A stretch of DNA of 64,000 bases from a virus, in IMG/VR virus record IMGVR_UViG_3300042479_001216, positions 1-64,000 of that record. One strand, 5' to 3'. The translations under genes were made by a program, and so were the position numbers. Shown here one piece after another: positions 33,333 to 50,409 of this stretch (positions are counted from its first letter, which is position 1; every line of letters begins with the position of its first letter). Below the pieces are notes generated by a model. That model did not search any database, was not told the DNA's origin, and worked only from the letters and a program-made list of their open reading frames with translations.

Positions 33333-33542
33333 ATGAAAAATAATGAAAATATTATTGAATTCTGTAAGGATATTAAAAATAAAAGTAATAGTGAAATTAT
33401 TAATGTTTTGGATAGTTTGACTGAGGAATTTAATGAAACAAAAAATATAGTTATCAATCTGACTTATAAATTAGATGAGATTGAGGGGGCTTATTCTAAA
33501 ATTTTAGAAGAATATAATTCAAGAAATAATTATGGACAATAG
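33333..33542 (+). CDS. Hypothetical small helical protein
   Basis: I choose the ATG at 33333 (MKNNENIIEF, 69 residues), because starts further upstream lie inside the previous gene. The chain is one acidic heptad-like helix: IKNKSNSEIINVLDSLTEEFNETKNIVINLTYKLDEIEGAYSKILEEY. It could be a small assembly or tail chaperone-type protein. The end overlaps the next gene by 11 bp, so it is coupled to the gp5-like gene. Confidence 0.6.
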   Translation: MKNNENIIEFCKDIKNKSNSEIINVLDSLTEEFNETKNIVINLTYKLDEIEGAYSKILEEYNSRNNYGQ

Positions 33543-35058: not shown

Positions 35059-36561
35059 ATGTCAATTCATCTATCTTATTTTAATAGAAACAACACTTTA
35101 ATTGCAAATTCAAAAATAAATACAGGTAGAAACCCTGTTATTGAATTAACTTATGGTGCAACAGATTACTTAATCCCAGCATATGGACCAACAAGGCTAA
35201 TTTTTGATTTAGATTTAGAACCTCTAATTGATAAAGTTAATGATGATATCATTTTTAGCGGTTCATTGTCAAGTGTCACACATACATTAGTCTTAAAAAA
35301 TTCAGCATCTTTTGATGAATCCTTATTAAATGGGAAAATGCCAAATCAAAAACGTAGAGCATCTTCCTTTGATTTGGTTTTATTTAGAATTCCATTGAGT
35401 AGTGGTAGCACAGGGTATGTTCAAAATTGGGATGAAGGTGTAGGTTATGATTATACAGATTATTCAAAAAACTTAAATTCAGGGTCAGGGGCGAAATATC
35501 CCCTAGTTATAAAGAATGATAATTCATTTGCATCAACCCCCTCAAATTGGTATAATGCTCAAACATTAAGCGGATGGACTGAACCTGGTATTTATAACAA
35601 TAAAAATACGGGAAATGTTAATTATAGCGGATTGACCATTCTTGATACCAAACATTTTGAATTTGGTAATGAAGATGTTTCATTTAACATGACAAATGAA
35701 ATAAACGCCATTTTAAGCGGTTCTACCACATCTTATTCTGGTTGGGGCATTGCTTATACCCCATCTTATGAAAATGCAACAGGGTTAACGGAAAGCTATT
35801 CTGTTGGCTTTTTTTCAAGGCACACCCAGACATTTTATGAACCTTATCTATTAACAACTTATGATGATTTGATTAAGGATGATAGAAATAATTTTGTTAA
35901 GAATAGGGTAAATAAATTATATCTTTATGTAACAGATGAAGATTCGTATTCAAATTTGGATAACAATCCAATTGTTAATATATTTGACAATGATGGGAAT
36001 GTTGTTACTGGTTGCACAAACTTATCAACAAAATTAATTACCAAGGGTGTGTATGAGGTATCTGTACCAAATGTATTTAGTGGATATACAGCACCTATGG
36101 TATTTACTGATGTTTGGAGTGGGATGACCTTAAATGGAATTACATTACCCAATGTTGAAAATGAATTTGTATTATATGATGTAAATAATCGAATTAAAAC
36201 TGGAACAAAGACAACAGAAAGTGAAACATATAATTTTGATTTCTATAACATTATGCAAGGGGAAAAAATACTCAATACTGATGTTAGAAAGATTGGGGTT
36301 ATAATTAAAAAAGCATATAGCACAAGTGAATTATTAACAAACATTAAAGGATTTTATCGTGTTTATGTTAAGGAGGGGGAAACCCAAGTTCAAGTTCAAG
36401 ATTGGACAGAATTTAACAGAACACCAAATGAATATTATTTTAATTTTGACACAAGAGATAAAATACCAAATAAATATTTTGTTGATTTAAAGGTTCAAAT
36501 TGCTGGGGAGATTACCACTTATAAAAAACAATTGCACTTTTTTATTATAAATAAAAAATAA
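35059..36561 (+). CDS. Putative virion protein (tail/baseplate)
   Basis: The 500-residue protein is beta-rich with many Ser, Thr, Asn and Tyr, typical of tail or baseplate proteins. Notable parts are FDLVLFRIPLSSGSTGYVQNWDEG and YTDYSKNL near residues 105-135. VSFNMTNEINAILSGSTTSYSGWGIAYTP near 215-243 resembles disaggregatase-like or 'DNRLRE' modules where a domain-swapped beta sandwich ends in W-G-I-A. The later region has Ig-like spacing. No membrane segment is visible. It precedes the repeat-protein array directly (7-bp gap). Confidence 0.5.
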   Translation: MSIHLSYFNRNNTLIANSKINTGRNPVIELTYGATDYLIPAYGPTRLIFDLDLEPLIDKVNDDIIFSGSLSSVTHTLVLKNSASFDESLLNGKMPNQKRRASSFDLVLFRIPLSSGSTGYVQNWDEGVGYDYTDYSKNLNSGSGAKYPLVIKNDNSFASTPSNWYNAQTLSGWTEPGIYNNKNTGNVNYSGLTILDTKHFEFGNEDVSFNMTNEINAILSGSTTSYSGWGIAYTPSYENATGLTESYSVGFFSRHTQTFYEPYLLTTYDDLIKDDRNNFVKNRVNKLYLYVTDEDSYSNLDNNPIVNIFDNDGNVVTGCTNLSTKLITKGVYEVSVPNVFSGYTAPMVFTDVWSGMTLNGITLPNVENEFVLYDVNNRIKTGTKTTESETYNFDFYNIMQGEKILNTDVRKIGVIIKKAYSTSELLTNIKGFYRVYVKEGETQVQVQDWTEFNRTPNEYYFNFDTRDKIPNKYFVDLKVQIAGEITTYKKQLHFFIINKK

Positions 36562-36568
36562 TTAGATA

Positions 36569-37276
36569 ATGGAAAAAGAAACATTAAAAAGAATATTTGA
36601 ATTCCTTGAAGAGAAAGGAGAACATAGAGCACCATTTAAATGGAAAATATTAAATAATGAGCCAATAACCAAAGAAGATTTAGATGTTATAGGTAATTTG
36701 TGGTTTTATGAAACAACAATAACCTCATTACCAGAAGGTTTGAAAGTTGGTGGTAATTTCGATTTAAGAAGATCAAAAATAACCTCATTGCCAGAAGGTT
36801 TGAAAGTTGGGGGTAATTTGAATTTAGGTTCAACAAAAATAACATCATTACCTGAAGGATTGGAAGTTGGTGGTGATTTGTTTTCATCTAATACAGATAT
36901 AACCTTGCTACCAAAAGGATTGAAAGTTGGTAGGGATTTGTATTTAAATAATACAAAAATAACTTCATTACCAGAAGGATTGAAAGTTGGAGGGCATTTA
37001 GTTTTAAATAATACAAAAATAACTTCATTACCAGAAGGACTTGAAGTTAGGAAAGATTTGGTGTTATTTGGTTGTAAAAATATACAATCATTGCCAGAAG
37101 GTTTAAAAGTTGGTGGTGATTTGGATTTAAGACTAACAGATTTAACCTCATTACCAAAAGGATTGAAAGTTTATGGATCTATAATGTTGAATCTTTCCCA
37201 TTTAGATGAAATTAGTAATTATAGATTAAGAAAGATGATTCAACCTGGATTTATAAAAGGAAAAATAGTTAGATAA
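36569..37276 (+). CDS. Leucine-rich-repeat-like family protein, array member 1 (8 repeats)
   Basis: This 235-residue protein opens the array. The N-terminal module is MEKETLKRIFEFLEEK, then PFKWKILNNEPITKEDL (residues 1-37). Eight 20-21-residue repeats follow, of the form (S/L)LPxGLxVGGxLxLxxTxIT, in which L, P, G-L, V and alternating L-x-L are fixed. A cap, LDEISNYRLRKMIQPGFIKGKIVR, ends the chain. The repeat resembles bacterial LPxGL solenoid repeats and should fold as a right-handed solenoid with a parallel beta face. The function is unknown; protein binding is the usual role of such folds. Confidence 0.85.
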   Translation: MEKETLKRIFEFLEEKGEHRAPFKWKILNNEPITKEDLDVIGNLWFYETTITSLPEGLKVGGNFDLRRSKITSLPEGLKVGGNLNLGSTKITSLPEGLEVGGDLFSSNTDITLLPKGLKVGRDLYLNNTKITSLPEGLKVGGHLVLNNTKITSLPEGLEVRKDLVLFGCKNIQSLPEGLKVGGDLDLRLTDLTSLPKGLKVYGSIMLNLSHLDEISNYRLRKMIQPGFIKGKIVR

Positions 37277-37872
37277 TGGAAAAAGAAACAATTGAAAAAA
37301 TACTTGATTTTCTTGAAGAAAAGGAAGGGGTAATACCTAAAAATAATTTAAGGTGGAAGTTATTATTTAATAAACCATTAACAAAAGATGAATTAAATAT
37401 AAAAGATGATTTGAATTTAATGTACTCAAGTATAGAATCATTACCAGAAGGGTTAAAAGTTGAGGGGGACTTAATTTTAACATTTTCAAGAATACAATCA
37501 TTACCAGAAGGATTAAAAGTTGGGAAGCATTTGTTTTTAGCATATTCAAAAATAACCTCATTACCAAAAGGATTGAAAGTTGGTGGTAATTTGCATTTAA
37601 ATTATACATCCATTAGTTCATTACCTAATGACTTAAAAATTAGGGGTTTTTTGGATTTATATTCTTGCAAAGATTTAATTTCACTACCAGAAGGATTAAA
37701 AGTTGGTAAATATTTGAATTTAAAAGATACAAAAATAACATCATTACCAAAAGGGTTAGAAGTTAGGGGGGTATTGTATATAGAAAATACCCCATTACGA
37801 AAATACACAGATGGACAATTAAGAGAAATGGTTTATCCTGGATTTATAAAAGAAAAAATATCAAGATTGTGA
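37276..37872 (+). CDS. Leucine-rich-repeat-like family protein, array member 2 (6 repeats)
   Basis: The 198-residue protein has the family N-terminal module (MEKETIEKILDFLEEKEGVI...LRWKLLFNKPLTKDEL), six repeats such as SLPEGLKVEGDLILTFSRIQ and SLPKGLKVGGNLHLNYTSIS, and the cap TPLRKYTDGQLREMVYPGFIKEKI. One repeat is 21 residues (DLYSCKDLI) where a Cys replaces the position before the turn. It starts on the last base of member 1's stop (TAATG) and overlaps member 3 by 4 bp. Confidence 0.85.
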   Translation: MEKETIEKILDFLEEKEGVIPKNNLRWKLLFNKPLTKDELNIKDDLNLMYSSIESLPEGLKVEGDLILTFSRIQSLPEGLKVGKHLFLAYSKITSLPKGLKVGGNLHLNYTSISSLPNDLKIRGFLDLYSCKDLISLPEGLKVGKYLNLKDTKITSLPKGLEVRGVLYIENTPLRKYTDGQLREMVYPGFIKEKISRL

Positions 37873-38282
37873 AAGAAGAAACATTAAAAAGAATACTTGA
37901 ATTCCTTGAGAAGGAAGAAAATAGAAAAAAACCTTTTGCTTATAAAGTAAAAAATAATGAACCCTTAACAGAAAAAGATTTAAATATTGAAGGTAATTTG
38001 GATTTATCAAATTTTAAAATAACTTCATTACCAGAAGGATTGAAAGTTGGGCGTGTTTTAGATTTAACAGACTCAGATATAAAAACATTACCAGAAGGAT
38101 TGGAAGTTGAGGGTAATTTATGGTTAGCTGGGTGTTGGGGTTTAACCTCATTACCAAAAGACTTGAAAGTTGGGGGTAGTTTATATATTTACAGAACAAA
38201 ATTTACAGAAATTTCAGACAATGAATTATTGAATATGATAAAGCCAAATGGTTATATAGGAGAAATAATAGGAAATATGTAG
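37869..38282 (+). CDS. Leucine-rich-repeat-like family protein, array member 3 (3 repeats, GTG start)
   Basis: This 137-residue member begins with GTG (GTGAAAGAAGAAAC) overlapping the TGA of member 2, the only visible non-ATG start in the array. The N-terminal module contains EFLEKEENRKKPFAYKVKNNEPLTEKDL; here YK replaces the usual WK. Three repeats follow, one with CWGLT, and then a cap FTEISDNELLNMIKPNGYIGEII. It is among the shortest members, so the fold tolerates very few repeats. Confidence 0.85.
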   Translation: MKEETLKRILEFLEKEENRKKPFAYKVKNNEPLTEKDLNIEGNLDLSNFKITSLPEGLKVGRVLDLTDSDIKTLPEGLEVEGNLWLAGCWGLTSLPKDLKVGGSLYIYRTKFTEISDNELLNMIKPNGYIGEIIGNM

Positions 38283-38285
38283 ATA

Positions 38286-38825
38286 ATGGAAAATAAAACA
38301 TTTAAAAAAATACTTGATTTTCTTGAAAAGGAAGAAAATAAAATGCCCCGAGATAAAGGTAGTTTTAAATGGAAGGTTATATTTAATGAATTAACATATG
38401 ATGAATTAAATATTAATGGTAATTTGGAATTATCATATACAAAAGTAACATCATTACCAGAAGGATTAAGAGTTAAGGGTTGGGTTAATTTAATGGGTTG
38501 TTCGGCAATAGTCTCATTACCAGAAGGGTTAGAAGTTGGGGATTATTTATCTTTAGCAAGTTCAAATATAGAATCACTACCAAAAGGATTGAAAGTTGGT
38601 GGTAATTTGAATTTAAGGAACTCAAAAATAAAAAATATACCTGATGATATTGAAATTGGTGGTTCTTTGTATTTGCAGAAAACAAAAATAACTTCATTAC
38701 CAAAAGGATTGATAATTAAGGGTTATTTAGTTTTAAATAGTAATGATAGTTTATCCAAATTTTCTAATGCTGAATTAAAAGAAATGGTTAAACCTGGATT
38801 TATAAAAGGAATATTAAGAGAGTAA
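38286..38825 (+). CDS. Leucine-rich-repeat-like family protein, array member 4 (5 repeats)
   Basis: The 179-residue member starts MENKTFKKILDFLEKEENK and has SFKWKVIFNELTYDEL, five repeats (SLPEGLRVKGWVNLMGCSAIV to SLPKGLIIKGYLVLNSNDSL) and the cap SKFSNAELKEMVKPGFIKGIL. One repeat reads NIPDDIEIGGSLYLQKTKIT, with P-D-D-I in place of P-x-G-L, a variant also found in member 9. It is coupled to member 5 by a TAATG overlap. Confidence 0.85.
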   Translation: MENKTFKKILDFLEKEENKMPRDKGSFKWKVIFNELTYDELNINGNLELSYTKVTSLPEGLRVKGWVNLMGCSAIVSLPEGLEVGDYLSLASSNIESLPKGLKVGGNLNLRNSKIKNIPDDIEIGGSLYLQKTKITSLPKGLIIKGYLVLNSNDSLSKFSNAELKEMVKPGFIKGILRE

Positions 38826-39298
38826 TGGAAATAGAAACATTAAAAAAAATAATTGAATTCCTTGAGAAAGAGGAAAATAGACCAAAACCTTTTGCTTATA
38901 AAGTAAAAATTAATCACCCATTTACAGAAGATGAATTAAATTTTGATGGGGATTTAATTTTAAATCATTCAGCAATAACCTCATTACCAGAGGGATTGAG
39001 AGTTCAAGGTGATTTGTCATTATTTGCATCAGCAATAAAAACATTACCAGAAGGGCTATATGTTAAGGGTAGTTTGGATGTATCACATACATATATTGAA
39101 TCATTACCAGACAATTTATATGTTGGGGGTGATTTATGGTTTAAATATTCAAATATAGGAGAAATACCAAAAAATTTATACGTTGGTGGTGAATTAGATA
39201 TAGAAGAGACCCCCCTCGCCAAAAAATATACAGATGGTGAAATAAGAAGAAATAAAAATTTAAATAATGGTTCATTTAAAGGAAATATAATTAGATAA
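38825..39298 (+). CDS. Leucine-rich-repeat-like family protein, array member 5 (4 repeats)
   Basis: This 157-residue member starts MEIETLKKIIEFLEKEENRPKPFAYK, close to member 3 in this module. The four repeats use a YV variant (SLPDNLYVGGDLWFKYSNIG, EIPKNLYVGGELDIEETPL). The cap is different from most: AKKYTDGEIRRNKNLNNGSFKGNIIR. Member 6 shares the last repeats and this cap almost exactly, so members 5 and 6 arose by a recent duplication or by exchange. Confidence 0.85.
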   Translation: MEIETLKKIIEFLEKEENRPKPFAYKVKINHPFTEDELNFDGDLILNHSAITSLPEGLRVQGDLSLFASAIKTLPEGLYVKGSLDVSHTYIESLPDNLYVGGDLWFKYSNIGEIPKNLYVGGELDIEETPLAKKYTDGEIRRNKNLNNGSFKGNIIR

Positions 39299-39768
39299 TG
39301 GAAAAAGAAACATTAAAAAGAATATTTGATTTCCTTGAAGAAAATGATGATATCAAAACACCATTTTTATGGAAATGGGTAAATAATGAACTAACAAAAG
39401 AGGATTTAAATATAAAAGGCAATTTAAATTTGGAATTTACAACTATAACCTCATTACCTAATGGGATGAGAGTTGAAGGTAAATTGTGGTTGTTGGGATC
39501 AGAAATAAACTCATTACCAGAAGGGTTATATGTTAAGGATAGTTTTAACTTATCCCATACAAATATAGAATCATTACCAGACAATTTATATGTTGGGGGT
39601 GATTTGTATTTTAGACATTCAGATATAGAAGAAATCCCAAAAAATTTATATGTTGGTGGTAATTTATATATAGGAGAATCCTTCCTTGCCAAAAAATATA
39701 CAGATGCTGAAATAAGAAGAAATAAAAATTTAAATAATGGTTCATTTAAAGGAAATATAATTAGATAA
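39298..39768 (+). CDS. Leucine-rich-repeat-like family protein, array member 6 (4 repeats)
   Basis: The 156-residue member has the module MEKETLKRIFDFLEENDDIKTPFLWKWVNNELTKEDL, four repeats and the cap AKKYTDAEIRRNKNLNNGSFKGNIIR. The second half (from SLPEGLYVKDSFNLSHTNIE) is nearly the same as in member 5. The N-terminal half is closer to other members, which suggests recombination between paralogues inside the repeat region. Confidence 0.85.
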   Translation: MEKETLKRIFDFLEENDDIKTPFLWKWVNNELTKEDLNIKGNLNLEFTTITSLPNGMRVEGKLWLLGSEINSLPEGLYVKDSFNLSHTNIESLPDNLYVGGDLYFRHSDIEEIPKNLYVGGNLYIGESFLAKKYTDAEIRRNKNLNNGSFKGNIIR

Positions 39769-40247
39769 TGGAAAAAGAAACACTAAAAAATATACTTGAT
39801 TTTCTTGAAAAAGAAGACAATAAAAAACATAAAAACAAAGGAACTTTAAGGTGGAAATTTATGTTTAATGAACCATTAACAAAAGAAGATTTAATTGTTA
39901 GAGGCGATTTGGATATATCTGGCATAAATATACAACATTTACCAAAAGGGTTAAAAGTTATAGGAAATGCTGATTTTCGGTTCTCAAGTTTAAAAACATT
40001 CCCAGAAAAATTATTTGTTGAGGGTGATTTGAATTTTGAATGGACAAGTTTCAAATCCTTGCCAGGTGATTTATATGTTGGTCGCGATTTAGATTTAACA
40101 TATTCAGATATAGAAACATTATCAAAAGGTTTAAAAGTTGAACGTAATTTACATATTGTAAAAACTCCATTAGCAAAACTTTCAGATGAAAAAATAAGAG
40201 AAATGGTTGAACCAGATGGGTTTATAAATGGTAAAATAATTAGATAA
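39768..40247 (+). CDS. Leucine-rich-repeat-like family protein, array member 7 (4 repeats)
   Basis: This 159-residue member starts MEKETLKNILDFLEKEDNKKHKNKGTLRWKF. It has four diverged repeats (HLPKGLKVIGNADFRFSSLK, TFPEKLFVEGDLNFEWTSFK, SLPGDLYVGRDLDLTYSDIE, TLSKGLKVERNLHIVKTPL) with several Leu-to-Phe or Trp changes. The cap is AKLSDEKIREMVEPDGFINGKIIR. It is the most divergent repeat set in the array. Confidence 0.85.
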   Translation: MEKETLKNILDFLEKEDNKKHKNKGTLRWKFMFNEPLTKEDLIVRGDLDISGINIQHLPKGLKVIGNADFRFSSLKTFPEKLFVEGDLNFEWTSFKSLPGDLYVGRDLDLTYSDIETLSKGLKVERNLHIVKTPLAKLSDEKIREMVEPDGFINGKIIR

Positions 40248-40855
40248 TGGAAAAAGAAGCAATAAAAAATATATTTGATTTCCTTGAAAAGAAAGAAAAT
40301 AAAAAACATAAAGATAGGGATAGCATTATTTGGAAATTAAAATTTGATGAACCAATAACAGAAGAAGAGTTAAATGTAAAAGGTAATTTGGATTTATCAT
40401 ATTCAAAAATAACCTCATTACCAGATGGGTTGAAAGTTGGTGGTTATTTGATTTTAAATTATTCATCTATTAAATCATTACCTGATAACTTAAAAGTTGG
40501 GGGTCGTTTAGATTTAGAAGGTTGTGAAGATTTAATTTCACTGCCAAGAGGATTAGAACTTGGAGCGTCTTTATATTTAGAAAATTCCACAAATTTAATA
40601 TCTTTACCAAAAGGATTGAAAGTTGCGCATAATTTAGATTTAGAAAATTGCACAAGTTTAACATCCTTGCCAGAAGGATTGGAAGTTGGCCGTGATTTGT
40701 ATTTAGAAAATTGCACAAGTTTAACATCATTACCAAAAGGGTTGAAAGTTAGGGGGATTTTAATTATAAGTGGATCACCATTAGTAAAATTTTCTGATGA
40801 AGAATTAAGAAATATGGTTAAACCTGGATTTATAAAGGAGCAAATAATTAGATAA
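40247..40855 (+). CDS. Leucine-rich-repeat-like family protein, array member 8 (6 repeats)
   Basis: The 202-residue member starts MEKEAIKNIFDFLEKKENKKHKDRDS, almost the same as member 9 at protein and DNA level. Four of its six repeats are the 21-residue form with a Cys or Ser turn (LENCTSLTSLPEGLEVGRDL), and two adjacent repeats are near duplicates. The cap is SPLVKFSDEELRNMVKPGFIKEQIIR. The row of Asn-Cys-Thr turns would put a ladder of Cys residues on one side of the solenoid. Confidence 0.85.
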   Translation: MEKEAIKNIFDFLEKKENKKHKDRDSIIWKLKFDEPITEEELNVKGNLDLSYSKITSLPDGLKVGGYLILNYSSIKSLPDNLKVGGRLDLEGCEDLISLPRGLELGASLYLENSTNLISLPKGLKVAHNLDLENCTSLTSLPEGLEVGRDLYLENCTSLTSLPKGLKVRGILIISGSPLVKFSDEELRNMVKPGFIKEQIIR

Positions 40856-41394
40856 TGGAAAAAGAAGCAATAAAAAATATATTTGATTTCCTTGAAAAGA
40901 AAGAAAACAAAAAACATAAAGATAGAGATACCTTTATTTGGAAATTAAAACTTGGTGATCCCCTAACAAAAGAAGATTTAATTGTTAATGGTGATTTAGA
41001 TTTAACAGATTCAACTTTAAAATCATTACCAGATAATTTGGAAGTTAAAGGTAGAATGATTACTAGATTTTCAAAAATAGAAGAATTACCAAAAGGGTTA
41101 AAAGTTGATGGTTCTCTGGAGTTATCGCATTCAATTATAAAAAACATACCAAATGATATTAAAATTGGTGCTTCTTTGTATTTGCATAATACAAAAATAA
41201 CTTCATTACCAGAAGGGCTAGTAATTGACCTTTGGTTATCAATAATGGATACACCAATAAAAAGATTACCAAAAGGATTGGAAGTTAATGGATATTTAGC
41301 CGTGAGTGTTGGAGATAGTTTAGACAAATTTTCAGATGCTGAATTAAGAGAAATGGTTAAACCTGGGCGTATAGGTAGAATAATTAGGATATAA
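40855..41394 (+). CDS. Leucine-rich-repeat-like family protein, array member 9 (5 repeats)
   Basis: This 179-residue member shares its first 26 residues with member 8 but has different repeats, including NIPNDIKIGASLYLHNTKIT (as in member 4) and SLPEGLVIDLWLSIMDTPIK. The cap is DKFSDAELREMVKPGRIGRIIRI. An exchange of repeat blocks between members is therefore visible. It is the last gene before the 139-bp interruption; no TAATG follows. Confidence 0.85.
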   Translation: MEKEAIKNIFDFLEKKENKKHKDRDTFIWKLKLGDPLTKEDLIVNGDLDLTDSTLKSLPDNLEVKGRMITRFSKIEELPKGLKVDGSLELSHSIIKNIPNDIKIGASLYLHNTKITSLPEGLVIDLWLSIMDTPIKRLPKGLEVNGYLAVSVGDSLDKFSDAELREMVKPGRIGRIIRI

Positions 41395-41511
41395 CCACAT
41401 ACAATTTAACCACAACAGCAGATTTTAATAAAGATGACATAGTAATAGGCTAAAACAAAAAGTCCCTTAAAATCAAAATATGAGAGCCATAATCAAAATA
41501 AAGAATAATGA

Positions 41512-41519
41512 TATTTATA
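41512..41519 (+). promoter_or_regulatory. TATTTATA promoter-like motif in the array gap
   Basis: TATTTATA lies 14 bp before the ATG at 41534 and is followed by AATAAAAAATAA. The remaining part of the 139-bp gap (41395-41511) shows no gene. No TTTG box lies at the -33 distance. It could drive the 41534 gene and array members 10-13. Confidence 0.5.
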
Positions 41520-41533
41520 ATAAAAAATAAGAT

Positions 41534-41956
41534 ATGATACATCCAGTAATTAAAAAAATTGTTAAGAATGCAATAAATGAGCAAGCAACAGAAAATTATA
41601 TGTTTTTTGGAAACTTAAAACAAATTAAAAGACAATGTGAATTATTGCTTGAATTTCAACCTGATGAAATTAATGAATTGTTGACCAATGGCCATGATTG
41701 GGCTGATGACCATGTGACAGTTGCAAAAGAAAACTTGGATCAAGTTTTTGATTTTATGATGAATGAATTTGAAAATAGGGATAGCCAGAACATAACAGAA
41801 GCAAAGGAAAAAAAGAATAAACCAACAAATCCCAAGTTATGGAGTCAATGTTTGAGTTGGGCAAGGTCTAGGTATAAAGTATGCCCAAGCGCATATTGTA
41901 ATGGTGCTGCGGCAAAAAGGTATAAGAAATTGGGTGGAAAGTGGAAGAAAGGATAG
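41534..41956 (+). CDS. Hypothetical phage protein interrupting the array
   Basis: The 140-residue protein has a helical first half (IHPVIKKIVKNAINEQATENYMFF, LLEFQPDEINELLTNGHDWADDHV). The C-terminal module KPTNPKLWSQCLSWARSRYKVCPSAYCNGAAAKRYKKLGGKWKKG is of the 'NPxLWxxxxxxAxxxYxxxPSAYxNxxAxkxYkxxGgxW' type found in many phage proteins of unknown role. It has three Cys residues. It is unrelated to the repeat proteins around it, but is followed 3 bp later by array member 10 with the usual junction sequence. Confidence 0.7.
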   Translation: MIHPVIKKIVKNAINEQATENYMFFGNLKQIKRQCELLLEFQPDEINELLTNGHDWADDHVTVAKENLDQVFDFMMNEFENRDSQNITEAKEKKNKPTNPKLWSQCLSWARSRYKVCPSAYCNGAAAKRYKKLGGKWKKG

Positions 41957-41959
41957 ATA

Positions 41960-42424
41960 ATGGAAAAAGAAACATTAAAGAAGATATTTAAATTTCTTGA
42001 AAAGAATGATGAAATAAGAGCACCATTATTATGGAAATGGTCAAGTGGTGAACCATTAACAGAAGATGATTTGCATATTAAAGGTGATTTGGATTTTTCA
42101 GATTCAGGGATAGAAACATTGCCAGATAATTTATATGTTGAAGGTGACTTGTATTTACAATTTTCTGATATTAAATCATTACCAAAAGGATTGAAAGTTG
42201 GGAGACATTTAGATTTATCAAACACAAGAATAACTTCTATGCCAGAAGGATTAGAAGTTGGGGTTGATTTGGATTTATCCTACTCTGAAATAGCATCATT
42301 ACCAAAAGGATTGAAAGTTGGGCAAAATTTGTTTATTGGTGGAACACCATTAGCAAAATTTTCAGATGATGAATTAATAAAAATGGTTGAGCCTAGTTTT
42401 TTAAATAGATATATATATAGATAA
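41960..42424 (+). CDS. Leucine-rich-repeat-like family protein, array member 10 (4 repeats)
   Basis: This 154-residue member restarts the array after the unrelated gene. Module: MEKETLKKIFKFLEKNDEIRAPLLWKWSSGEPLTEDDL. Four repeats follow (TLPDNLYVEGDLYLQFSDIK to SLPKGLKVGQNLFIGGTPL), then the cap AKFSDDELIKMVEPSFLNRYIYR. The TAA stop overlaps the next ATG. The module is close to that of member 11. Confidence 0.85.
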   Translation: MEKETLKKIFKFLEKNDEIRAPLLWKWSSGEPLTEDDLHIKGDLDFSDSGIETLPDNLYVEGDLYLQFSDIKSLPKGLKVGRHLDLSNTRITSMPEGLEVGVDLDLSYSEIASLPKGLKVGQNLFIGGTPLAKFSDDELIKMVEPSFLNRYIYR

Positions 42425-43071
42425 TGGAAAAAGAAACATTAAAGAAGATATTTAATTTCCTTGAAAAGAAGGATAATAGGAATACGCCACTTAGGTGGAA
42501 ATGGTCAAATGGTTTTCCATTCACAGAAGATGATTTACATGTTAAAGGTGATTTGAATTTATCAGATTTAGAGATAGAAGAATTGCCAGAAGGATTGAAA
42601 GTTGAAGGTGATTTGTTTTTACAAAATTCAGATATTAAATCATTACCAGAAGGATTGGAAGTTGGAGGGCATTTAGTTTTAAATTATACAGAAATAAGAA
42701 AATTACCAAAAGGATTAAAAGTTAAATTAGATTTGGATTTATCATATACACAAATACAATCATTACCAAAAGGATTAAAAATTGAAGGTGAATTAAATTT
42801 AAATACCACCCCATATTTGGAATCATTACCAGAAGGAATGGAAGTTGGTATATTATCTTTGGAGGATTCAGAGATAGGATTTTTACCAAAAGGATTAAAA
42901 GTTAATAGATTGTTAGATTTAATGCGTTGCAAAAATTTAACTTCATTACCAAAAGGGTTGGAGGTTTATGGTAATTTGGCCATTCACGACTCTGGGTTAG
43001 CAAAATTTTCAGATAATGAATTAAGAAAAATGGTTAAACCAGGATTTATACTTGGAAATATAGAAAGATAA
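42424..43071 (+). CDS. Leucine-rich-repeat-like family protein, array member 11 (7 repeats)
   Basis: The 215-residue member has the module MEKETLKKIFNFLEKKDNRNTPLRWKWSNGFPFTEDDL and seven repeats. One is 21 residues (LNTTPYLE) and one is a residue short (SLPEGMEVGILSLEDSEIG). The cap is SGLAKFSDNELRKMVKPGFILGNIER. Irregular repeat lengths would bend the solenoid. It is coupled to both neighbours by TAATG. Confidence 0.85.
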   Translation: MEKETLKKIFNFLEKKDNRNTPLRWKWSNGFPFTEDDLHVKGDLNLSDLEIEELPEGLKVEGDLFLQNSDIKSLPEGLEVGGHLVLNYTEIRKLPKGLKVKLDLDLSYTQIQSLPKGLKIEGELNLNTTPYLESLPEGMEVGILSLEDSEIGFLPKGLKVNRLLDLMRCKNLTSLPKGLEVYGNLAIHDSGLAKFSDNELRKMVKPGFILGNIER

Positions 43072-43475
43072 TGGAAAAAGAAACACTAAAAAAGATATTT
43101 ACATTCCTTGAAGAAGAAGAAAATAAGGATAAACCATTTATGTGGAAATTAATGAATAATGAACCATTAACAGATGAAGAGTTATTTGTTGAAGGGGATT
43201 TGGATTTAACAGAAACAGATATTGAATCATTACCAGATGGATTGAACGTTGAGGATATTTTAAGTTTATATGGTTGTAAAAATATACAATCATTACCAGA
43301 AGGATTAAAAGTTGGGGAGGATTTGGATTTGGGACATTCAAATATAACATCATTACCAAAAGGGTTGAAAGTTTGGGGTCGTTTGTTTATTAAAAATACA
43401 CCATTAACAAAATATTCAACTGAGGAATTAAGGCAAATGGTTAATCCTGGATATATAAATAATATAATTAGATAA
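43071..43475 (+). CDS. Leucine-rich-repeat-like family protein, array member 12 (3 repeats)
   Basis: This short member of 134 residues has the module MEKETLKKIFTFLEEEENKDKPFMWKLMNNEPLTDEEL. Three repeats follow (SLPDGLNVEDILSLYGCKNIQ, SLPEGLKVGEDLDLGHSNIT, SLPKGLKVWGRLFIKNTPL) and then the cap TKYSTEELRQMVNPGYINNIIR. The GCKNIQ repeat is also found in member 1, another sign of shared repeat blocks. Confidence 0.85.
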   Translation: MEKETLKKIFTFLEEEENKDKPFMWKLMNNEPLTDEELFVEGDLDLTETDIESLPDGLNVEDILSLYGCKNIQSLPEGLKVGEDLDLGHSNITSLPKGLKVWGRLFIKNTPLTKYSTEELRQMVNPGYINNIIR

Positions 43476-44041
43476 TGGAAAAAGAAACACTAAAGAATAT
43501 ATTTAATTTTATTGAAAAGTTAGATGGTACAAAAATTCCATTTTTATGGAAAATAACAAATGGTTCACCATTAACAAAAGAAGATTTAATTGTTAATGAT
43601 GATTTGGATTTATCAAATTTTAAAATAACTTCATTACCAGAAGGATTGAAAGTTAGTGGCAATTTGAATTTAGATTATTCAAAAATAACTTCATTACCAG
43701 AAGACTTGGAAGTTGGGGGCGAGTTATCTTTAGAACATTCAAATATAAAATCATTACCAGAACTATTGAAAGTTGGGGGTGATTTGGATTTATATGGCTG
43801 TGAAAAACTTGAATCATTACCAGAAGGATTAAAAGTTAATGGTACATTATATTTAAATCATTGTTACAAATTACAATCATTACCAAAAGGATTGAAAGTT
43901 GATGATGGAATAAACATAACTTACACAAAATTAACCAAATACACTGAAAATCAATTAAAAAAAATGGTTAAACCTGGATATATTAAAGGTATTATATTAA
44001 ATGAGGATCCTGATTGGGATGAAACAGAATTTGCTATTTAA
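43475..44041 (+). CDS. Leucine-rich-repeat-like family protein, array member 13 (5 repeats, acidic tail)
   Basis: The last plus-strand member has 188 residues: module MEKETLKNIFNFIEKLDGTKIPFLWKITNGSPLTKEDL, five repeats (two with Cys turns), and the cap TKYTENQLKKMVKPGYIKGIIL. It then adds a unique acidic tail NEDPDWDETEFAI not present in other members. The -33 box of the next promoter (44030-44033) lies inside its last codons. Confidence 0.85.
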   Translation: MEKETLKNIFNFIEKLDGTKIPFLWKITNGSPLTKEDLIVNDDLDLSNFKITSLPEGLKVSGNLNLDYSKITSLPEDLEVGGELSLEHSNIKSLPELLKVGGDLDLYGCEKLESLPEGLKVNGTLYLNHCYKLQSLPKGLKVDDGINITYTKLTKYTENQLKKMVKPGYIKGIILNEDPDWDETEFAI

Positions 44042-44074: not shown

Positions 44075-44461
44075 ATGAACATTAAATCTTGGTTGACCCC
44101 CCTAGTTAATTCATTTAAAGAAAACATCTTGGCATTAACTGACCCAACAGAGGATGAAGTTAGGTGTAAAAATATTATCTTTAAAATGCTGGACAATCCA
44201 GATGCCAAACTTGCTTATTCATCAAAATCGCCAGAAAGATTAATTTATCTTGAAGATGAGAATATCTTTATCATTATATATGATAGAGAAATTCATATGA
44301 TTTATGAATATGAACTTTTCAAGTTTTTTATTAATCACCATCAAACACATATTGATATTATCAGCAGGTTTGATGATAAGATGCAATCAAAATTTGATAC
44401 CTTTTATGAGTTGTCAAATTATCTAAAAGAAAACTTTTTAATTAAGGTTGAAGCCTTTTAG
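44075..44461 (+). CDS. Hypothetical protein
   Basis: The 128-residue protein is not recognised. It begins with a helix (IKSWLTPLVNSFKENILAL), then KNIIFKMLDNPDAKLAYSSKSPERLIYLEDENIFIIIYDREIHMIYEYELFKFFINHH, a beta-hairpin plus helix, and ends helical. It has its own strong host-type promoter directly upstream, so it is likely to be expressed early. Many such genes in phages are host-takeover factors, but nothing in the sequence proves this. Confidence 0.65.
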   Translation: MNIKSWLTPLVNSFKENILALTDPTEDEVRCKNIIFKMLDNPDAKLAYSSKSPERLIYLEDENIFIIIYDREIHMIYEYELFKFFINHHQTHIDIISRFDDKMQSKFDTFYELSNYLKENFLIKVEAF

Positions 44462-44503
44462 GTTAACAAAGATATGATAATATCATATAAATTTAAAAAC
44501 ATT

Positions 44504-45818: not shown

Positions 45819-47609
45819 TTATCTTAACTCTTGTAAGTCAAATGTTCTAACACCATCAACCGTAATTCTACCGTAGAAACGGTTGTTAACTAGTTTTTTA
45901 GCATATCTTGTCATTATACCTTTAATTGGTGTAAAGTTGAATGGATTATACATTGTTGGTGTTAATTGTAATGGTACATATGGTGCATAGATATAACCAG
46001 TGTCTAATAATGATGTTCCTTTGTGTCCCATTAACACTTGGTTTGCTGGGAAGTAAGGGTCACGATATACTTGGTAACGACCTGCTAATGTACCAACTCT
46101 TTCAATACCCATGTTGTATTGGTCTTGGTCAGGAGATGCATTTGATACGTGGAAGTATTCCAAATCATCAAAAATTGCACTAACTTCAGAAGAAACAACA
46201 ATCCAGTTTGCACCACCTCTCAATGTTGATTTGTGGATTTGTGCTGATACTTGGTTAATAGTTGTGATTAATGTTTGATTCCAGTCTTTCTGTGTGTAAG
46301 GGATAGCGTTTGTACCCAATCTCTTCCAACCATTGTAATCCCAACGTAAATTCCAAGCAGCACCTTTTCTAAGGTCTCTTAAAATTTCTCTATCAATCTC
46401 AGCTGCAATTTGCTCTGATAATAAAGCAGTTAATTCTGCTTCAGCATCAATGTTATGGAATGCAGCAACGTCTTGTGCCATTTCTGGTGACCATTGTGCT
46501 CTTAACTTTCTTTCTGTAACTGAAACAGTAACTGATTGTAAATCAAAAGAAACCTCACCAATTTTATCTTCAAATTCTAAACTCTTGTAAATTCTATAAG
46601 TTGCTGTAAAGTCAGTTGCGGCTGTACCTGAAATTGATGTTGTGAAACCTGTGTAACCATCTAATGAATCTGCACCAACTGTTGCAGGTCTTTGTAAATC
46701 AACTTCAAGATAAACAACACCAGCAGGTGTTGATAAATCATTGTATGATCCACCTCCTGTTCTACTACTAGGGAAAGTTATTGTATTCTCAGAACCATAT
46801 TGAACAAGCCCTTTTGCATATTTCTGTGTAACAACTCTAAACAATAATGGATTGCCAAGTCCAGATGCTGTTGTAACACCAGAGAATGCACCACCTGCTG
46901 ATGTACTTGCATAAACAGTCAAACCAGCCAAGAAACTTTCATTATCCATTGGATGACCATCAGGTCCAATTAATTTACCTTCACCATCAGATCCAAAACC
47001 TGTCAAAGCTAGTATAACTCTTCTATAATTACCTGCTGAATAACCTGAAGTAACTAATGAACCATCACTCCAAACAACTGTAGTACCTGTTGCAGTAACT
47101 GCACTATATTGTCCTTTTGAATAATCATAAAGACCTTCTGGGTTTAAGCTTGGCTCATTACCTTCATAAAATCTATCATATAAATTTTTTCCACTACCAT
47201 AACCAGTAGTTGGTGTTTGAGTATCTGCTGCACCTGGAGCACCATATGGTGAATAGTGTGCACCAGAATTTGCTTCTTGGATTTGAGGTACAAAGAAGAA
47301 CAGTTTACCAATTGGTAAATTCATTGCCTGTACAGATACAATATCATTAGCCAATAATTTAGAGAATACTCTCCTAACGATTGGGAAAACAACTGTTTCA
47401 AACGCACCAGTATCAGATGTACTAGCCGCTTCGTTAATAAGATATGATGCTTGGTTTTCATATAACTGTGCAACATTCTCTTTTAAATGACCTTTTAAGC
47501 CTTCAAGGAATCCTAATTTATTCCATTTGTTAATTGTATCTTCTTTGATAACTTTTAGGTGTTTCAACCCAATATTACCAACAAGACCTGATTCTAATAA
47601 TGCTCCCAT
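45819..47609 (-). CDS. Major capsid protein (T4 gp23-like)
   Basis: The 596-residue protein has the gp23 features. An N-terminal arm (residues 1-60) ends NVAQLYENQASYLINEA, followed by FETVVFPIVRRVFSKLLANDIVSVQAMNLPIGKLFFFVPQ, equal to the 'vfP.vrR.f..lia.dIvgVQPM..P.G..f' block. VTVSERKLRAQWSPEMAQDVAAFHNIDAEAELTALLSEQIAAEIDREIL is the conserved central helix region, and ANWIVVSSEVSAIFDDLEYF and GTLAGRYQVYRDPYFPANQVLMGHKG follow. It forms the capsid hexamers and is probably processed by the gp21-like protease. About 150 residues near the middle (160-330) are Gly/Ser-rich and poorly conserved. It lies 25 bp after the scaffold gene. Confidence 0.95.
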   Translation of the reverse strand: MGALLESGLVGNIGLKHLKVIKEDTINKWNKLGFLEGLKGHLKENVAQLYENQASYLINEAASTSDTGAFETVVFPIVRRVFSKLLANDIVSVQAMNLPIGKLFFFVPQIQEANSGAHYSPYGAPGAADTQTPTTGYGSGKNLYDRFYEGNEPSLNPEGLYDYSKGQYSAVTATGTTVVWSDGSLVTSGYSAGNYRRVILALTGFGSDGEGKLIGPDGHPMDNESFLAGLTVYASTSAGGAFSGVTTASGLGNPLLFRVVTQKYAKGLVQYGSENTITFPSSRTGGGSYNDLSTPAGVVYLEVDLQRPATVGADSLDGYTGFTTSISGTAATDFTATYRIYKSLEFEDKIGEVSFDLQSVTVSVTERKLRAQWSPEMAQDVAAFHNIDAEAELTALLSEQIAAEIDREILRDLRKGAAWNLRWDYNGWKRLGTNAIPYTQKDWNQTLITTINQVSAQIHKSTLRGGANWIVVSSEVSAIFDDLEYFHVSNASPDQDQYNMGIERVGTLAGRYQVYRDPYFPANQVLMGHKGTSLLDTGYIYAPYVPLQLTPTMYNPFNFTPIKGIMTRYAKKLVNNRFYGRITVDGVRTFDLQELR

Positions 47610-47634: not shown

Positions 47635-49419
47635 TTAACCTAATTTACCCATCAAATCCTTCATCCTCAAAAATTGAGGATTTTCATAAGTTTTTGATTC
47701 AATTAAGTTAGCTGATGAACCTGTTGACGCAACATTTGAAATCTTACGGTTAACAGACTCATTTAAAGACGAATTTGAATCTTTTGATAATTCATTGTTA
47801 ATAGCAGAATACAAGTTTTTAGATTCTTGTAATGTCTGAATATTATCAAATCGTCTTAAAATGTTTATTTTTTCTTTTTTAGTAGTTGAGTGTTCAGTAA
47901 ACAATCTTGTTGCATATGCTAAATTAGCATTGAAAACTGCAACATCATTTAGTTTCTCTCTAAAAATGTTTAATGATTTTTTATAATCATTATTTGTTTG
48001 TTTTAATTCAGAAACTTGGTTTTCCAGAGCCTCTAAATGTAAATTTCTATTTGGTGTTACGCCTTTTCTAAGACCTCTACCTGCTTTACTTCCCATTCCG
48101 TAAGTTCTTGATGCTTCTTTGGTTTCTTGTTTTTTACCAGTTGTAACTTTTTTCATTTTCCCATCAACATTTGCTGCGGATTTGTCATAGTTAAATTTGG
48201 CTTTACCTGTTCCCATTTTTTTAGGACCCTCTTTCATTTTTTCATTAAAACCGTTTTTAGCCATCTTGTACTTAAATTTGGAAGTCTTTTTAGCCTCACC
48301 TAAATAATTATAATTCTCTCCAACATTACCATCGCCACCATTTAAACAACCTTTTTCTTTCAAGTAATCATACACATCAGAAATAGTTGCTTTTGGATTT
48401 TTGGCTAAATAATCTGAAGTGCTAAAATTAGAACAATCAAAATCTTCATCATCTTCCATTTCATAATCATCATCTTCCATTTCATAATCCTCATCTTCCA
48501 TCTCATAACCATCATCTTCTACATCAAACTCTTCTTCGTCTTCCATTTCTATTTCATAAATAACATTGCTATGTTTATTTGCTTTTTCAAAAATTTTATC
48601 AATTGTTGATTGCGTATCATCTTCTTCTAACTCCATATCATCTTCCATATCATCATCTTCTTCTTTGTTGTCATTAAAATATTTCAAACCAAGTCTTTTG
48701 CTCATAGCATAGTCCACATCAATATCTTCGTTTTCGTCATCAAAAGGTTCAAAATCACCTTCTTCATCGTCGTCATTAAAATATCTCATACCATATTCTT
48801 GAGCATCATCTTCTTCATCACCATAACTTGACTTGATATAATCATCCTCTAAATCATCATCACCATCATCCATTTGATTACTAAGATGACGAACCATACG
48901 TGAATATTGTTTACCTTTCCCCATATCTGAATCAAAATCTTCTATTTGTTCTCCTAGTCTTATTAAATATTCATCACCATCATCAGTTAATGAGATATCA
49001 TTACCATCTTTTGATATAATTATACCATCTTCATCATCCATTGCTTTAAATACTTTTAAAAGTTCACTTTGTGATGCTCCCCTCATATCAATAACATCAT
49101 CCTCCATATCCATATCATCTTCCATATCCATATCATCTTCCATATCCATATCATCTTCCATATCCATATCATCTTCCATATCATCTTCCATATCATCCTC
49201 CATATCCATATCATCTTCCATATCCATATCATCTTCCATATCTAAATCAGTTTCATCATCTTCAATATCTGCTTGCTCATTTAAAGATTCTTTAACTAAT
49301 TCTTCGATTTCTTCCTTCATTGTTGAAGCAAGTATTCCTTTTGCGTTTTCTGCAAGCACATCTTCAATTTGTTTCATTTGAATTAGTGCTTCTTCTACTA
49401 AATTTTTTTCAGATTGCAT
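47635..49419 (-). CDS. Prohead core scaffold protein (gp22-like)
   Basis: By position, directly before the capsid gene, and by composition this 594-residue protein is the prohead core. Residues 1-55 are helical, and residues 55-115 consist of repeated DMEDDM units. A long Asp/Glu-rich part continues to about 350 with repeated YEMEDDD(Y). A basic stretch KKTSKFKYKMAKNGFNEKMKEG follows. The C-terminal region from about 455 is a coiled coil (LEALENQVSELKQTNNDYKKSLNIFREKLND) like T4 gp22. At 594 residues it is far longer than T4 gp22 (about 270) because of the acidic region. It is probably degraded by the protease during maturation. Confidence 0.8.
   Translation of the reverse strand: MQSEKNLVEEALIQMKQIEDVLAENAKGILASTMKEEIEELVKESLNEQADIEDDETDLDMEDDMDMEDDMDMEDDMEDDMEDDMDMEDDMDMEDDMDMEDDMDMEDDVIDMRGASQSELLKVFKAMDDEDGIIISKDGNDISLTDDGDEYLIRLGEQIEDFDSDMGKGKQYSRMVRHLSNQMDDGDDDLEDDYIKSSYGDEEDDAQEYGMRYFNDDDEEGDFEPFDDENEDIDVDYAMSKRLGLKYFNDNKEEDDDMEDDMELEEDDTQSTIDKIFEKANKHSNVIYEIEMEDEEEFDVEDDGYEMEDEDYEMEDDDYEMEDDEDFDCSNFSTSDYLAKNPKATISDVYDYLKEKGCLNGGDGNVGENYNYLGEAKKTSKFKYKMAKNGFNEKMKEGPKKMGTGKAKFNYDKSAANVDGKMKKVTTGKKQETKEASRTYGMGSKAGRGLRKGVTPNRNLHLEALENQVSELKQTNNDYKKSLNIFREKLNDVAVFNANLAYATRLFTEHSTTKKEKINILRRFDNIQTLQESKNLYSAINNELSKDSNSSLNESVNRKISNVASTGSSANLIESKTYENPQFLRMKDLMGKLG
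49098..49242 (-). repeat. In-frame 18/12-bp tandem repeat in the scaffold gene
   Basis: About eight copies of CATCTTCCATATCCATAT (18 bp, plus strand), with two 12-bp short units, encode DMEDDM and DMEDDMEDD on the minus strand. The nearly perfect DNA identity points to recent slippage. Copy number is likely to vary between relatives. Confidence 0.9.
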
Positions 49420-50408: not shown

Positions 50409-50409
50409 T

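Follow-up and report, generated by a model that had tools for sequence, protein, structure and literature searches.

One group of large T4-like phages has an apparently undescribed repertoire of dozens of tandem leucine-rich-repeat (LRR) genes, and thirteen such genes stand in a row in the window analysed here, the 64,000 nucleotides at positions 1-64,000 of the virus record IMGVR_UViG_3300042479_001216 (full record 107,202 bp). As judged from its sequences, the family is a maintained, diversifying recognition family and not junk. The repertoire as such is well supported; its target, timing and delivery are what we infer. It is tentatively read here as a clade-specific repertoire of LRR binders against variable host proteins, probably defence proteins, which may be made late, packaged and injected.

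Genomic organization of the LRR genes

The initial annotation had described thirteen genes of one plan in a row, interrupted by a single unrelated gene, and exactly this was recovered between 36569 and 44041, with 13 intact ORFs of 134-235 aa and one other gene among them (Table 1). The proposed plan of an N-terminal module, repeats and a C-terminal cap matches the alignment of the 26 members of this genome, in which the columns M1, I9, F12, K26, T34, L38, L44, L54, P55 and L199 are invariant; all 26 members are intact and range from 116 to 253 aa. The overlap of stop and start codons as TAATG, claimed for nearly every junction, was found at 9 of the 11 LRR-to-LRR junctions of the array, the two others being a GTGA overlap (37869) and a 3-nt gap (38286). 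With member 1 as query, other members of the same genome were matched with E-values down to 3e-46, so that the likeness within the family is not due to chance. The net charges of the 26 members lie between -16 and +6, and a reading as basic DNA-packing proteins was rejected on this ground.

What had been presented as one array holds as a cluster and falls short as the extent of the family, which occupies several sites and has 26 members in the full record, including three more in the window on the minus strand (49818-51572) and 10 more farther along the record. A second record (G003), which overlaps this one and is 100% identical to it in three compared stretches, reaches about 34 kb farther upstream and contributes 10 members. 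In total at least 36 LRR genes, grouped in six clusters, are present in the phage, and 41 in a relative of 270 kb. The genomic positions of the clusters are shared among relatives and the copy number differs; where both anchors are in view, it ranges from 6 to 13 at the site of the array (site A) and between 1 and 5 at site B.

Table 1. Features of the window at and around the two LRR sites
Feature	Coordinates	Strand	Remark
Site A left anchor, 500-aa gene, function unassigned	35059..36561	+	no PHROG match
LRR member 1, 235 aa	36569..37276	+	
LRR member 2, 198 aa	37276..37872	+	
LRR member 3, 137 aa, GTG start	37869..38282	+	
LRR member 4, 179 aa	38286..38825	+	
LRR member 5, 157 aa	38825..39298	+	
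LRR member 6, 156 aa	39298..39768	+	
LRR member 7, 159 aa	39768..40247	+	
LRR member 8, 202 aa	40247..40855	+	
LRR member 9, 179 aa	40855..41394	+	
Non-LRR gene within array, 140 aa	41534..41956	+	DUF5872 match weak, under cut-off
LRR member 10, 154 aa	41960..42424	+	AlphaFold2 model pLDDT 92.5
LRR member 11, 215 aa	42424..43071	+	
LRR member 12, 134 aa	43071..43475	+	
LRR member 13, 188 aa	43475..44041	+	
Site A right anchor, 128-aa gene, function unassigned	44075..44461	+	
Major head protein	45819..47609	-	phrog_138, E 2.7e-66
Probable scaffold, site B anchor	47635..49419	-	named by position only
Site B LRR, 196 aa	49818..50408	-	
Site B LRR, 133 aa	50410..50811	-	
Site B LRR, 253 aa	50811..51572	-	
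Head maturation (prohead) protease, T4 gp21 type, site B anchor	51574..52275	-	

Site B lies inside the head-assembly operon, between the gp21-type protease (Peptidase_S77, E 2.5e-24; phrog_207, E 8.8e-43) and a gene without family match that is called the probable scaffold from its place between the protease and the major head protein; the T4 counterparts of these two anchors are direct neighbours. In a comparison of protease loci, which were not picked via LRR genes and which include several near-identical copies of one phage, 30 of 31 clade loci and 0 of 42 sister-group loci had LRR genes behind the protease (best 80 of 312 matches). The clade was defined by about 88% identity or more and at least 250 bp downstream of the protease were required, by which three clade loci and two sister-group loci were set aside; two further loci had no protease ORF. 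L156 was scored positive after its open frame had been read by eye, four LRR-bearing loci fell in the lower identity bin through rounding, and L163 is the one clade locus without an LRR gene at site B. A search run without a positive control gave no LRR match in 12 records of the sister group. Among the site-labelled loci the occupancy of site B was 23/23, a value that is biased since these loci were fetched through their LRR genes.

Of the same-strand genes tested upstream of site A, those with a family match encode sugar epimerases, glycosyltransferases, FkbM methyltransferases, PhyH, PhoH and, at a borderline E-value of 0.0097, a late sigma factor; this lends no support to late expression of the 13-gene array. 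The three nearest genes (31289, 33532 and 35059) matched no family in PHROGs or Pfam, and the last, the 500-aa gene, had no match in named phages either. The idea that site A belongs to a virion-gene operon was rejected, as the neighbour genes tested with PHROGs and Pfam gave no such picture; this lowers the odds of packaging, of the preferred reading as a whole and of the combinatorial arsenal described below, and raises those of binders that stay unpackaged. Site C adjoins a peptidase (Peptidase_M42, just above cut-off) and a glucosaminidase, and single LRR genes occur at 95075 and, in record G007, at 174051 and 205033. As a separate observation, identity in locus L013 drops to 65% for the pair of genes preceding the 500-aa gene, against about 90% for their neighbours.

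Repeat structure and predicted fold

The repeats (470 + 163 distinct repeats) share a consensus of L at position -1, L at 3, V at 5, L at 9, L at 11, T/S/C at 14 and I/L at 16-17, and contain the LRR motif LxxLxLxx(N/T/S/C)x(L/I). Pfam LRR models matched one to two of the 26 members at E<=0.01, every printed LRR score being below its cut-off (for example LRR_1, 18 vs 20.6). The proteins are confidently predicted to be LRR solenoids, with an AlphaFold2 pLDDT of 92.5 and pTM of 0.83 for member 10; 42 of 44 picked sequences were covered in the first structure run. The best solved neighbour by VIA-align was 8z5u chain 0 (Z 14.1 over 115 residues, rmsd 2.1), with Z-scores of 14.1 and 14.5 for the two lineages described below.

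Variability, selection and gene turnover

In 470 distinct 20-residue repeats, the exposed positions 8, 10, 12, 13 and 15 counted from the proline have entropies of 3.1-3.7 bits, the next most variable position having 2.31 bits, and these five positions form the concave face of the predicted solenoid. The analysis of selection started from 271 distinct coding sequences, 101-459 codons long; 292 ungapped pairs of equal length and less than 22% difference were obtained, from which 78 pairs sharing no sequence were taken, most divergent first, whose branches may be partly in common. The dN/dS was 0.15 for the core, 0.47 (about 0.5) for the convex side and 0.81 (about 0.8-0.9) for the concave face, with 0.56 overall and 0.75 for the N-terminal module, which also evolves fast. 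Bootstrapping over pairs, with dS taken from the whole repeat and every repeat read in a 20-residue register, gave 0.11-0.23 for the core, 0.40-0.59 for the convex side, 0.68-1.07 for the face and 1.45-2.17 for the ratio of face to convex side. These estimates show a core under purifying selection and a concave face whose change is near-neutral or diversifying. Positive selection is not proven, since the dN/dS of the face does not exceed 1 and the N-terminal module is fast as well.

Whole genes also differ between relatives. Locus L102 has two members more than the window, standing between neighbours common to both whose identity to the window's copies is 98-99%. L013 is without members 2-5, 10 and 12, its first member is new, and its members 11 and 13 are separated by another gene. 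Identity between paralogues is patchy, with an exact run of at least 24 nt in 71 of 325 pairs and a longest run of 74 nt. On a tree built from the constant ends of 139 of 174 site-labelled proteins (filtered by length and N-terminal module), members from the same site cluster together, with 23 label changes against a mean of 68.1 and a minimum of 59 in 300 shuffles. By these comparisons of sequence, whole genes are shown to be born and lost at fixed sites. No reverse transcriptase was found in 13 records, which may be fragments (control genomes, 3/14 positive), and a diversity-generating element was accordingly dropped as the source of variation.

The predicted solenoid, the variability of the concave face and the gene turnover all support the earlier suggestion that constant ends and a variable middle make up a modular recognition set. 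Decaying copies with dN/dS near 1 had been named as the mark of junk, and the values found are 0.56 overall and 0.15 in the core, with broken copies being rare in the material covered (a split member in one contig and one second-lineage copy with a stop).

A second lineage and its N-terminal tag

A second lineage (lineage II) has homologous LRR arrays whose proteins begin with a tag ending in [LI]xE, similar to the capsid-targeting sequences (CTS) of T4; after removal of the first ~35 residues it aligned with the window family at an hhalign probability of 99.4 (E 1.1e-21). Its arrays are flanked by the genes for tail sheath and tail tube or occupy a further place, site D. In 18 chosen rows L9 and E11 of the tag are invariant, and the form MKxLIRKxLxE matched 20 LRR genes and nothing else. 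A looser pattern was N-terminal in 13 of 1,081 distinct non-LRR ORFs (about eight families by eye) and internal once, giving an N-terminal expectation of 0.1 from the internal rate; this count is post hoc, the pattern having been devised after examples were seen and several of the 13 ORFs being mutually homologous. In a separate loose test the N-terminal enrichment was only moderate, with 15/97 in G000 vs 9, 4 and 2 for the three windows that follow, and with 28/232 vs 17, 10 and 5 in G007. At residues 8-30 a strict motif occurred within the window's lineage in 5 of 25 LRR proteins of G000 and in 0 of 39 of G007. The 140-aa gene inside the array has an N-terminal tag of the [LI]xE kind, IVKNAINEQ. 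On the window's own LRR members the tag was sought and not found, which counts against their packaging. The sequence YLINEA in the N-terminus of the major head protein, which resembles FLTEA of T4 gp23, was left unused, as the columns differ in the alignment.

For T4, the protease motif is given as L/I-X-E, and a ten-residue CTS is reported to suffice for packaging and delivery (PMC9026906; on head proteases, PMC5694885); T-even internal proteins are reported to be defence proteins of diverse kinds with only the CTS in common (PMC3012670). The site in the head operon together with the tagged sister lineage hints at packaging in the head, a point absent from the initial annotation. That at least some LRR proteins are packaged there is possible and, on balance, doubtful.

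Comparison with known systems

The T4 internal proteins (IPI-IPIII, Alt) are likewise small and diverse proteins of T4-like phages with a constant N-terminus and a variable payload, and the gp21-type protease is present in this phage too, with a putative cleavage at the [LI]xE end of the lineage II tag. However, they come in few copies rather than tens, whereas the window's proteins have an LRR payload and no tag, and packaging is here a matter of inference. The same short bacterial-type LRR is found in SspH1, SlrP and IpaH, and there are sequence matches to the solved LRR domains of these effectors; the NCBIfam model of SlrP matched 6 of 26 members weakly (best E 2.1e-8, 32.5 bits vs a cut-off of 1113). 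Unlike these effectors, the phage proteins are without a C-terminal E3 ligase (NEL), stopping after the C-terminal module at 116-253 aa, have other end modules and are encoded by tandem phage genes. The closest solved repeat and fold, 8z5u chain 0 (profile E 5.9e-31), belongs to a polar flagellar motor, where this LRR protein is a single part of a cellular machine, the likeness covering repeat and fold. The ankyrin-repeat host-range families of poxviruses and the VLRs of vertebrates are likewise solenoid repertoires that have expanded, with ends kept constant and binding faces that vary. These are work-alikes to which no kinship is claimed, and they differ in fold (ankyrin) or by VLR gene rearrangement; lamprey VLRs were among the weaker PDB matches.

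Among phages, Edwardsiella phage Edno5 has a gene of the same repeat type (Edno5_0047, 46.6% identical to member 1 over 74% of its length), but it is one gene in the 16.5 kb examined, lies in a prophage-type control region and has another N-terminus. The BFVD entry A0A6J5LZF9, 'Leucine-rich repeat [uncultured Caudovirales phage]', is 38% identical, such entries being single predicted proteins. A Vibrio phage tail-module gene with an LRR match of 10% probability (PMC10945359) and a jumbo phage with a BspA-type LRR gene (PMC7765460) are on record, and the portions of these papers covered describe no LRR arrays; a term search of the available text of PMC5512222 gave no mention of LRRs. A family of similar size in one genome, of unrelated fold, is the zinc-ribbon expansion of Bacillus phage G, with about 35 copies and a suggested role as transcription factors or structural DNA-binding proteins (PMC7824862). 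In addition, T4 can evolve via tandem amplification of a counter-defence gene (PMC9391042). A scan of bacterial genomes with the family alignment gave no relative; with member 1 two records were matched, at query residues 36-228 and 121-179, the N-terminal module being unmatched. Both scans work from few exact peptide patterns, by which distant relatives are missed. PADLOC models matched 0 of 26 members.

Possible functions of the LRR repertoire

In the preferred reading, different concave faces would bind different partner proteins, and these would be fast-changing host proteins, most likely of defence. The LRR proteins would be made late, and at least some may be packed into the head and enter the next host along with the injected DNA, in the manner of T4 internal proteins. 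The fuller version of a combinatorial arsenal, in which interchangeable faces are head-loaded and injected together against whatever defences the next host has and turnover keeps the set current, is considered rather unlikely. A somewhat unlikely alternative is that the proteins are intracellular binders for host takeover or anti-defence which are never packaged, the head operon being a convenient place of insertion. It agrees with the missing tag on the window's members, with the sugar and host-takeover type genes (no identified virion genes) that precede site A, with the surroundings of site C and the scattered single genes, and with the fact that no signal peptide or membrane segment was spotted by eye in the members of this genome; however, site B in the head operon and lineage II between tail sheath and tube genes would then mean that early proteins are expressed late.

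That the proteins are adhesins of the virion surface or alternative receptor-binding modules is improbable: site B belongs to the head-assembly operon and to no tail-fibre locus, dozens of small separate proteins stand in place of one switching fibre, no attachment domain was noticed and the 13 records hold no reverse transcriptase, although the place of the lineage II arrays and the variable exposed face are in favour, as is the divergent L013 gene pair, which would suit a host-recognition region if these are tail genes. Drifting helpers of structure or assembly, such as head core proteins or tail chaperones, would adjoin protease and scaffold as seen, with a near-constant presence at site B within the clade; the variable copy number at both sites, the empty site B of L163 and the sister group, which has no LRR genes at site B and 12 records without a match, make this explanation quite improbable. 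A functionless, neutral expansion of repeats is the least credible and very improbable, for it could account for tandem duplication with patchy paralogue identity, the split copy and the stop-shortened one, but not for the low dN/dS of the core with intact frames in 26/26 members, by which junk expansion is disfavoured, nor for sites that persist clade-wide with same-site members together on the tree.

Immune receptors and animal viruses provide known cases of large repertoires of repeat-solenoid binders. In the open-licence literature searched, none was found for phages and no phage system of this form is described. Should the partners of the faces be host defence proteins, defence targets would be naturally catalogued in the family, which would also serve as a ready-made library of binders, and if the proteins are packaged, the principle of the T4 internal proteins would be widened from a few inhibitors to dozens. 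The gene turnover at fixed sites also makes the dynamics of the phage-host arms race measurable in metagenomes.

Extent of the LRR gene family

The thirteen consecutive genes of common plan described in the initial annotation were all found to be intact leucine-rich-repeat (LRR) genes, and the near-universal TAATG coupling proposed there was borne out, with 9 of 11 LRR-to-LRR junctions having this form. Three further LRR genes are present in the window, and the phage's own 107,202-bp record contains 26 in five clusters (13, 3, 7, 1 and 2). G003, an overlapping record from this phage with 100% identity across the three overlapping stretches compared, extends about 34 kb upstream of the window start and holds a sixth cluster of ten genes there, so that the phage has at least 36 LRR genes. 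In a 270-kb relative (G007) 41 LRR genes in nine clusters were counted, and the family was present in 22 of 22 related records searched, which had been selected by matching it. In one contig, L012, array member 6 is broken into two frames of 89 and 93 aa (10730-11199) and near-identical contigs are intact; the split is either a sequencing error or a fresh break.

The major head protein (phrog_138), portal (phrog_213), terminase and gp21-type head protease, together with the tail sheath found in G003 and G007 (phrog_23, E 5e-55), identify a T4-like myovirus. Among named phages, Microcystis phage Mel-JY01 and the Flavobacterium phages immuto come closest in portal and head protein, all at less than 60% identity, and the G+C content is 28%. 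A sugar-modification module of the phage occupies a long run of same-strand genes in the window (6070-29371); it encodes glycosyltransferases, epimerases of the GDP-mannose dehydratase type, FkbM methyltransferases and one PhyH protein. A 78-aa ORF (G000:82231-82467, locus L051) of the phage's own record contains the repeat KWESGATRGxANP three times.

Table. LRR clusters, their genomic sites and examples of tagged unrelated ORFs
Feature	Record	Coordinates	Strand	Position or remark
LRR array (site A)	window	36569-44041		between 500-aa gene at 35059 and gene at 44075
Unrelated gene interrupting the array	window	41534-41956		tagged ORF
Three further LRR genes	window	49818-51572	-	
Site B				between head protease and probable scaffold gene
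Site C				peptidase on one side, glucosaminidase on the other
Site D				after gene at 98952
Site E				singleton
Tagged unrelated ORF	L052	848-1165	-	
Tagged unrelated ORF	L052	246-827	-	

Protein fold and selection on the repeats

By alignment, the LRR proteins consist of an N-terminal helix and short module, repeats of 20 or 21 residues and a C-terminal module. For a 154-aa member, AlphaFold2 (42 sequences) returned a confident model (mean pLDDT 92.5, pTM 0.83) in which a solenoid is flanked by helices on its N-terminal side and by a helix plus strand on its C-terminal side. The nearest solved structure, 8z5u chain 0, is an LRR protein of a polar flagellar motor, with E 5.9e-31 in the sequence-profile search and, in the VIA comparison, Z 14.1, rmsd 2.1 and 115 aligned residues (second-best row Z 12.3). 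Each match to a Pfam LRR model printed with a score fell below the cut-off of that model, and a weak, unnamed family, phrog_21719, matched several of the seven members tested (best E 4.7e-6). In a Chlamydiae MAG, a 983-aa protein (L121:5704-8655) has the same repeat type with a different N-terminus and a long C-terminal part.

Among 470 distinct 20-mers, repeat positions -1, 0, 3, 5, 9, 11 and 16, counted from the proline, were near-fixed, and the xLxLxx(T/S)x segment had entropies of 3.1 to 3.7 bits at its five exposed positions. In LRR proteins, the concave face is built from the exposed residues of this segment. In 78 pairs with no sequence in common, dN/dS was 0.15 for the core, 0.47 for the convex side and 0.81 for the face, with ranges of 0.11-0.23, 0.40-0.59 and 0.68-1.07, respectively, in a bootstrap over pairs in which dS was computed across the whole repeat. 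In the same pairs the N-module reached 0.75, nearly the rate of the face, the C-terminal module 0.50 and the overall value 0.56. The fold is thus preserved and the face is free or driven to change; the values fall short of proving positive selection.

Genomic sites, clade distribution and turnover

The arrays occupy the same sites in related phages, with copy numbers of 9+4, 6+3, 6+0 or 10+0 at site A, 1 to 5 at site B, 2 to 7 at site C and 1 to 7 at site D. In T4 the protease gene 21 directly adjoins the scaffold gene 22, so that, compared with that phage, site B represents an insertion. In order that the LRRs themselves did not select the loci, these were fetched via the head protease, and the best 80 of 312 matches were used. 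Of 31 loci with a minimum of 250 bp downstream of a protease of about 88% identity or higher, 30 had LRR genes there, one of these being a contig-end locus judged by eye; L163 was the sole exception. In the sister group (74-77% identity in the counted loci), by contrast, LRRs followed the protease in 0 of 42 loci, with the scaffold gene in view in 36. The protease-fetched loci are not mutually independent. The family profile had no match in twelve sister records of up to 321 kb, in a search run without a positive control, and a profile of a second LRR lineage (lineage II) had none in seven of these twelve, with six LRR-bearing records matched alongside. In many sister phages a short gene of about 107 aa takes the place of the LRRs at site B (L174-L181, L183, L187-L190, L192, L193, L207).

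Whole members are gained or lost in L102 while shared members stay 98-99% identical, and one site B member is only 74% or 67% identical in L110 and L100, with neighbours at 97-99%. Between the relative contig L013 and the window, dS was 0.04-0.28 for seven orthologous array genes and 0.29-1.21 for the ten flanking genes compared, so that the array has its own exchange history. Two window genes (31289-33331 and 33532-35040), without match in a PHROG search, are only 65% identical in L013, versus 89-93% for the genes on both sides, and the 312-aa gene behind the array (44474-45412) has a different length there and 58.7% identity over 126 aligned residues. Exact DNA runs common to LRR paralogues reach at most 74 nt, and at most 45 nt across distant clusters. 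The 12-mer TTAGATAATGGA occurs in 9 copies in the phage's own record, all at LRR starts, among them those of the first array gene and of the singleton starting at 95554, as if duplication units had carried along the end of the preceding LRR gene. In a tree of the constant ends the members mostly stay with their own site (23 changes versus a shuffled mean of 68.1).

A second lineage with an N-terminal tag

L050 gave access to lineage II at ten loci. Most carry arrays; that of L143 is the longest, with eight genes, the final one shortened by a stop. In this lineage the constant N-terminus is MKTLIRKLLKEQEE..., the repeats read NLTEVGGxLxLxxCxNLxSLG, and the C-terminal module is recognisably that of the window lineage; hhalign aligned all but the first ~35 residues (probability 99.4, E 1.1e-21). 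The model is an LRR solenoid (pLDDT 89.5), with the first 30 residues at only about 63-65. One lineage II array is located at site D (anchor 45% identical), and that of L144 is flanked by tail sheath and tail tube genes. A 521-aa protein (L027:10998-12563) combines the N-terminus MNLNENINRIKQVMGLLNEQ, a middle part and a family-type LRR domain.

Unrelated proteins share a kind of short N-terminal tag that ends in [LI]xE and mostly continues with Q, N or A. When 1,081 distinct non-LRR ORFs were compared with a pattern built from lineage II-type tags themselves, 13 matched in the first 32 residues, where 0.1 were expected; these 13 fall by eye into about eight families, and elsewhere in all of the ORFs the pattern occurred once. 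Such tags are possible capsid-targeting sequences, which would mark a set of injected proteins. A sister-group relative of the gene interrupting the array (L216:11763-12230, minus strand), recognised by eye from a common NYMFF..LKQ.KRQ stretch, bears another tag of greater length, MKTVKLTESDLNRIVKKVLTEQ, as though tags could be exchanged on this type of gene.

Possible roles of the LRR proteins

The LRR fold is old, and isolated LRR genes are already known from phages (Edno5, BFVD entries); no description of phage LRR arrays was found in searches of open-licence PubMed Central listings. A term search in a survey of 224 jumbo phages (PMC7824862) gave no mention of LRR; the one expansion of comparable kind that it brought up belongs to a different fold. 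The family probably constitutes a repertoire. In T4, gp21 cleaves after L/I-X-E, and ten N-terminal residues are enough for a protein to be packed into heads and delivered to the host (PMC9026906); T-even internal proteins are described as diverse defence proteins with only the capsid-targeting sequence in common (PMC3012670). These proteins and their capsid targeting are the nearest functional precedent, which would apply to lineage II.

The main rival explanations are that the LRR proteins are intracellular binders that are never packaged, or that they are surface adhesins. Unlike T4 internal proteins, the window's own members gave no tag motif in a motif check, and their packaging into the head appears rather unlikely. 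Of the same-strand genes upstream of site A, those with family matches are sugar epimerases, glycosyltransferases, FkbM methyltransferases, a PhyH protein, a PhoH protein and, as a borderline match, a late sigma factor; the closest three had no family match in PHROGs or Pfam; on these matches the 13-gene array is not assignable as a late virion operon. In the favoured reading, which we consider plausible but short of probable, the LRR proteins would be binders with variable targets, changing host proteins would exert pressure on them, and some or all of them would be delivered by the virion.
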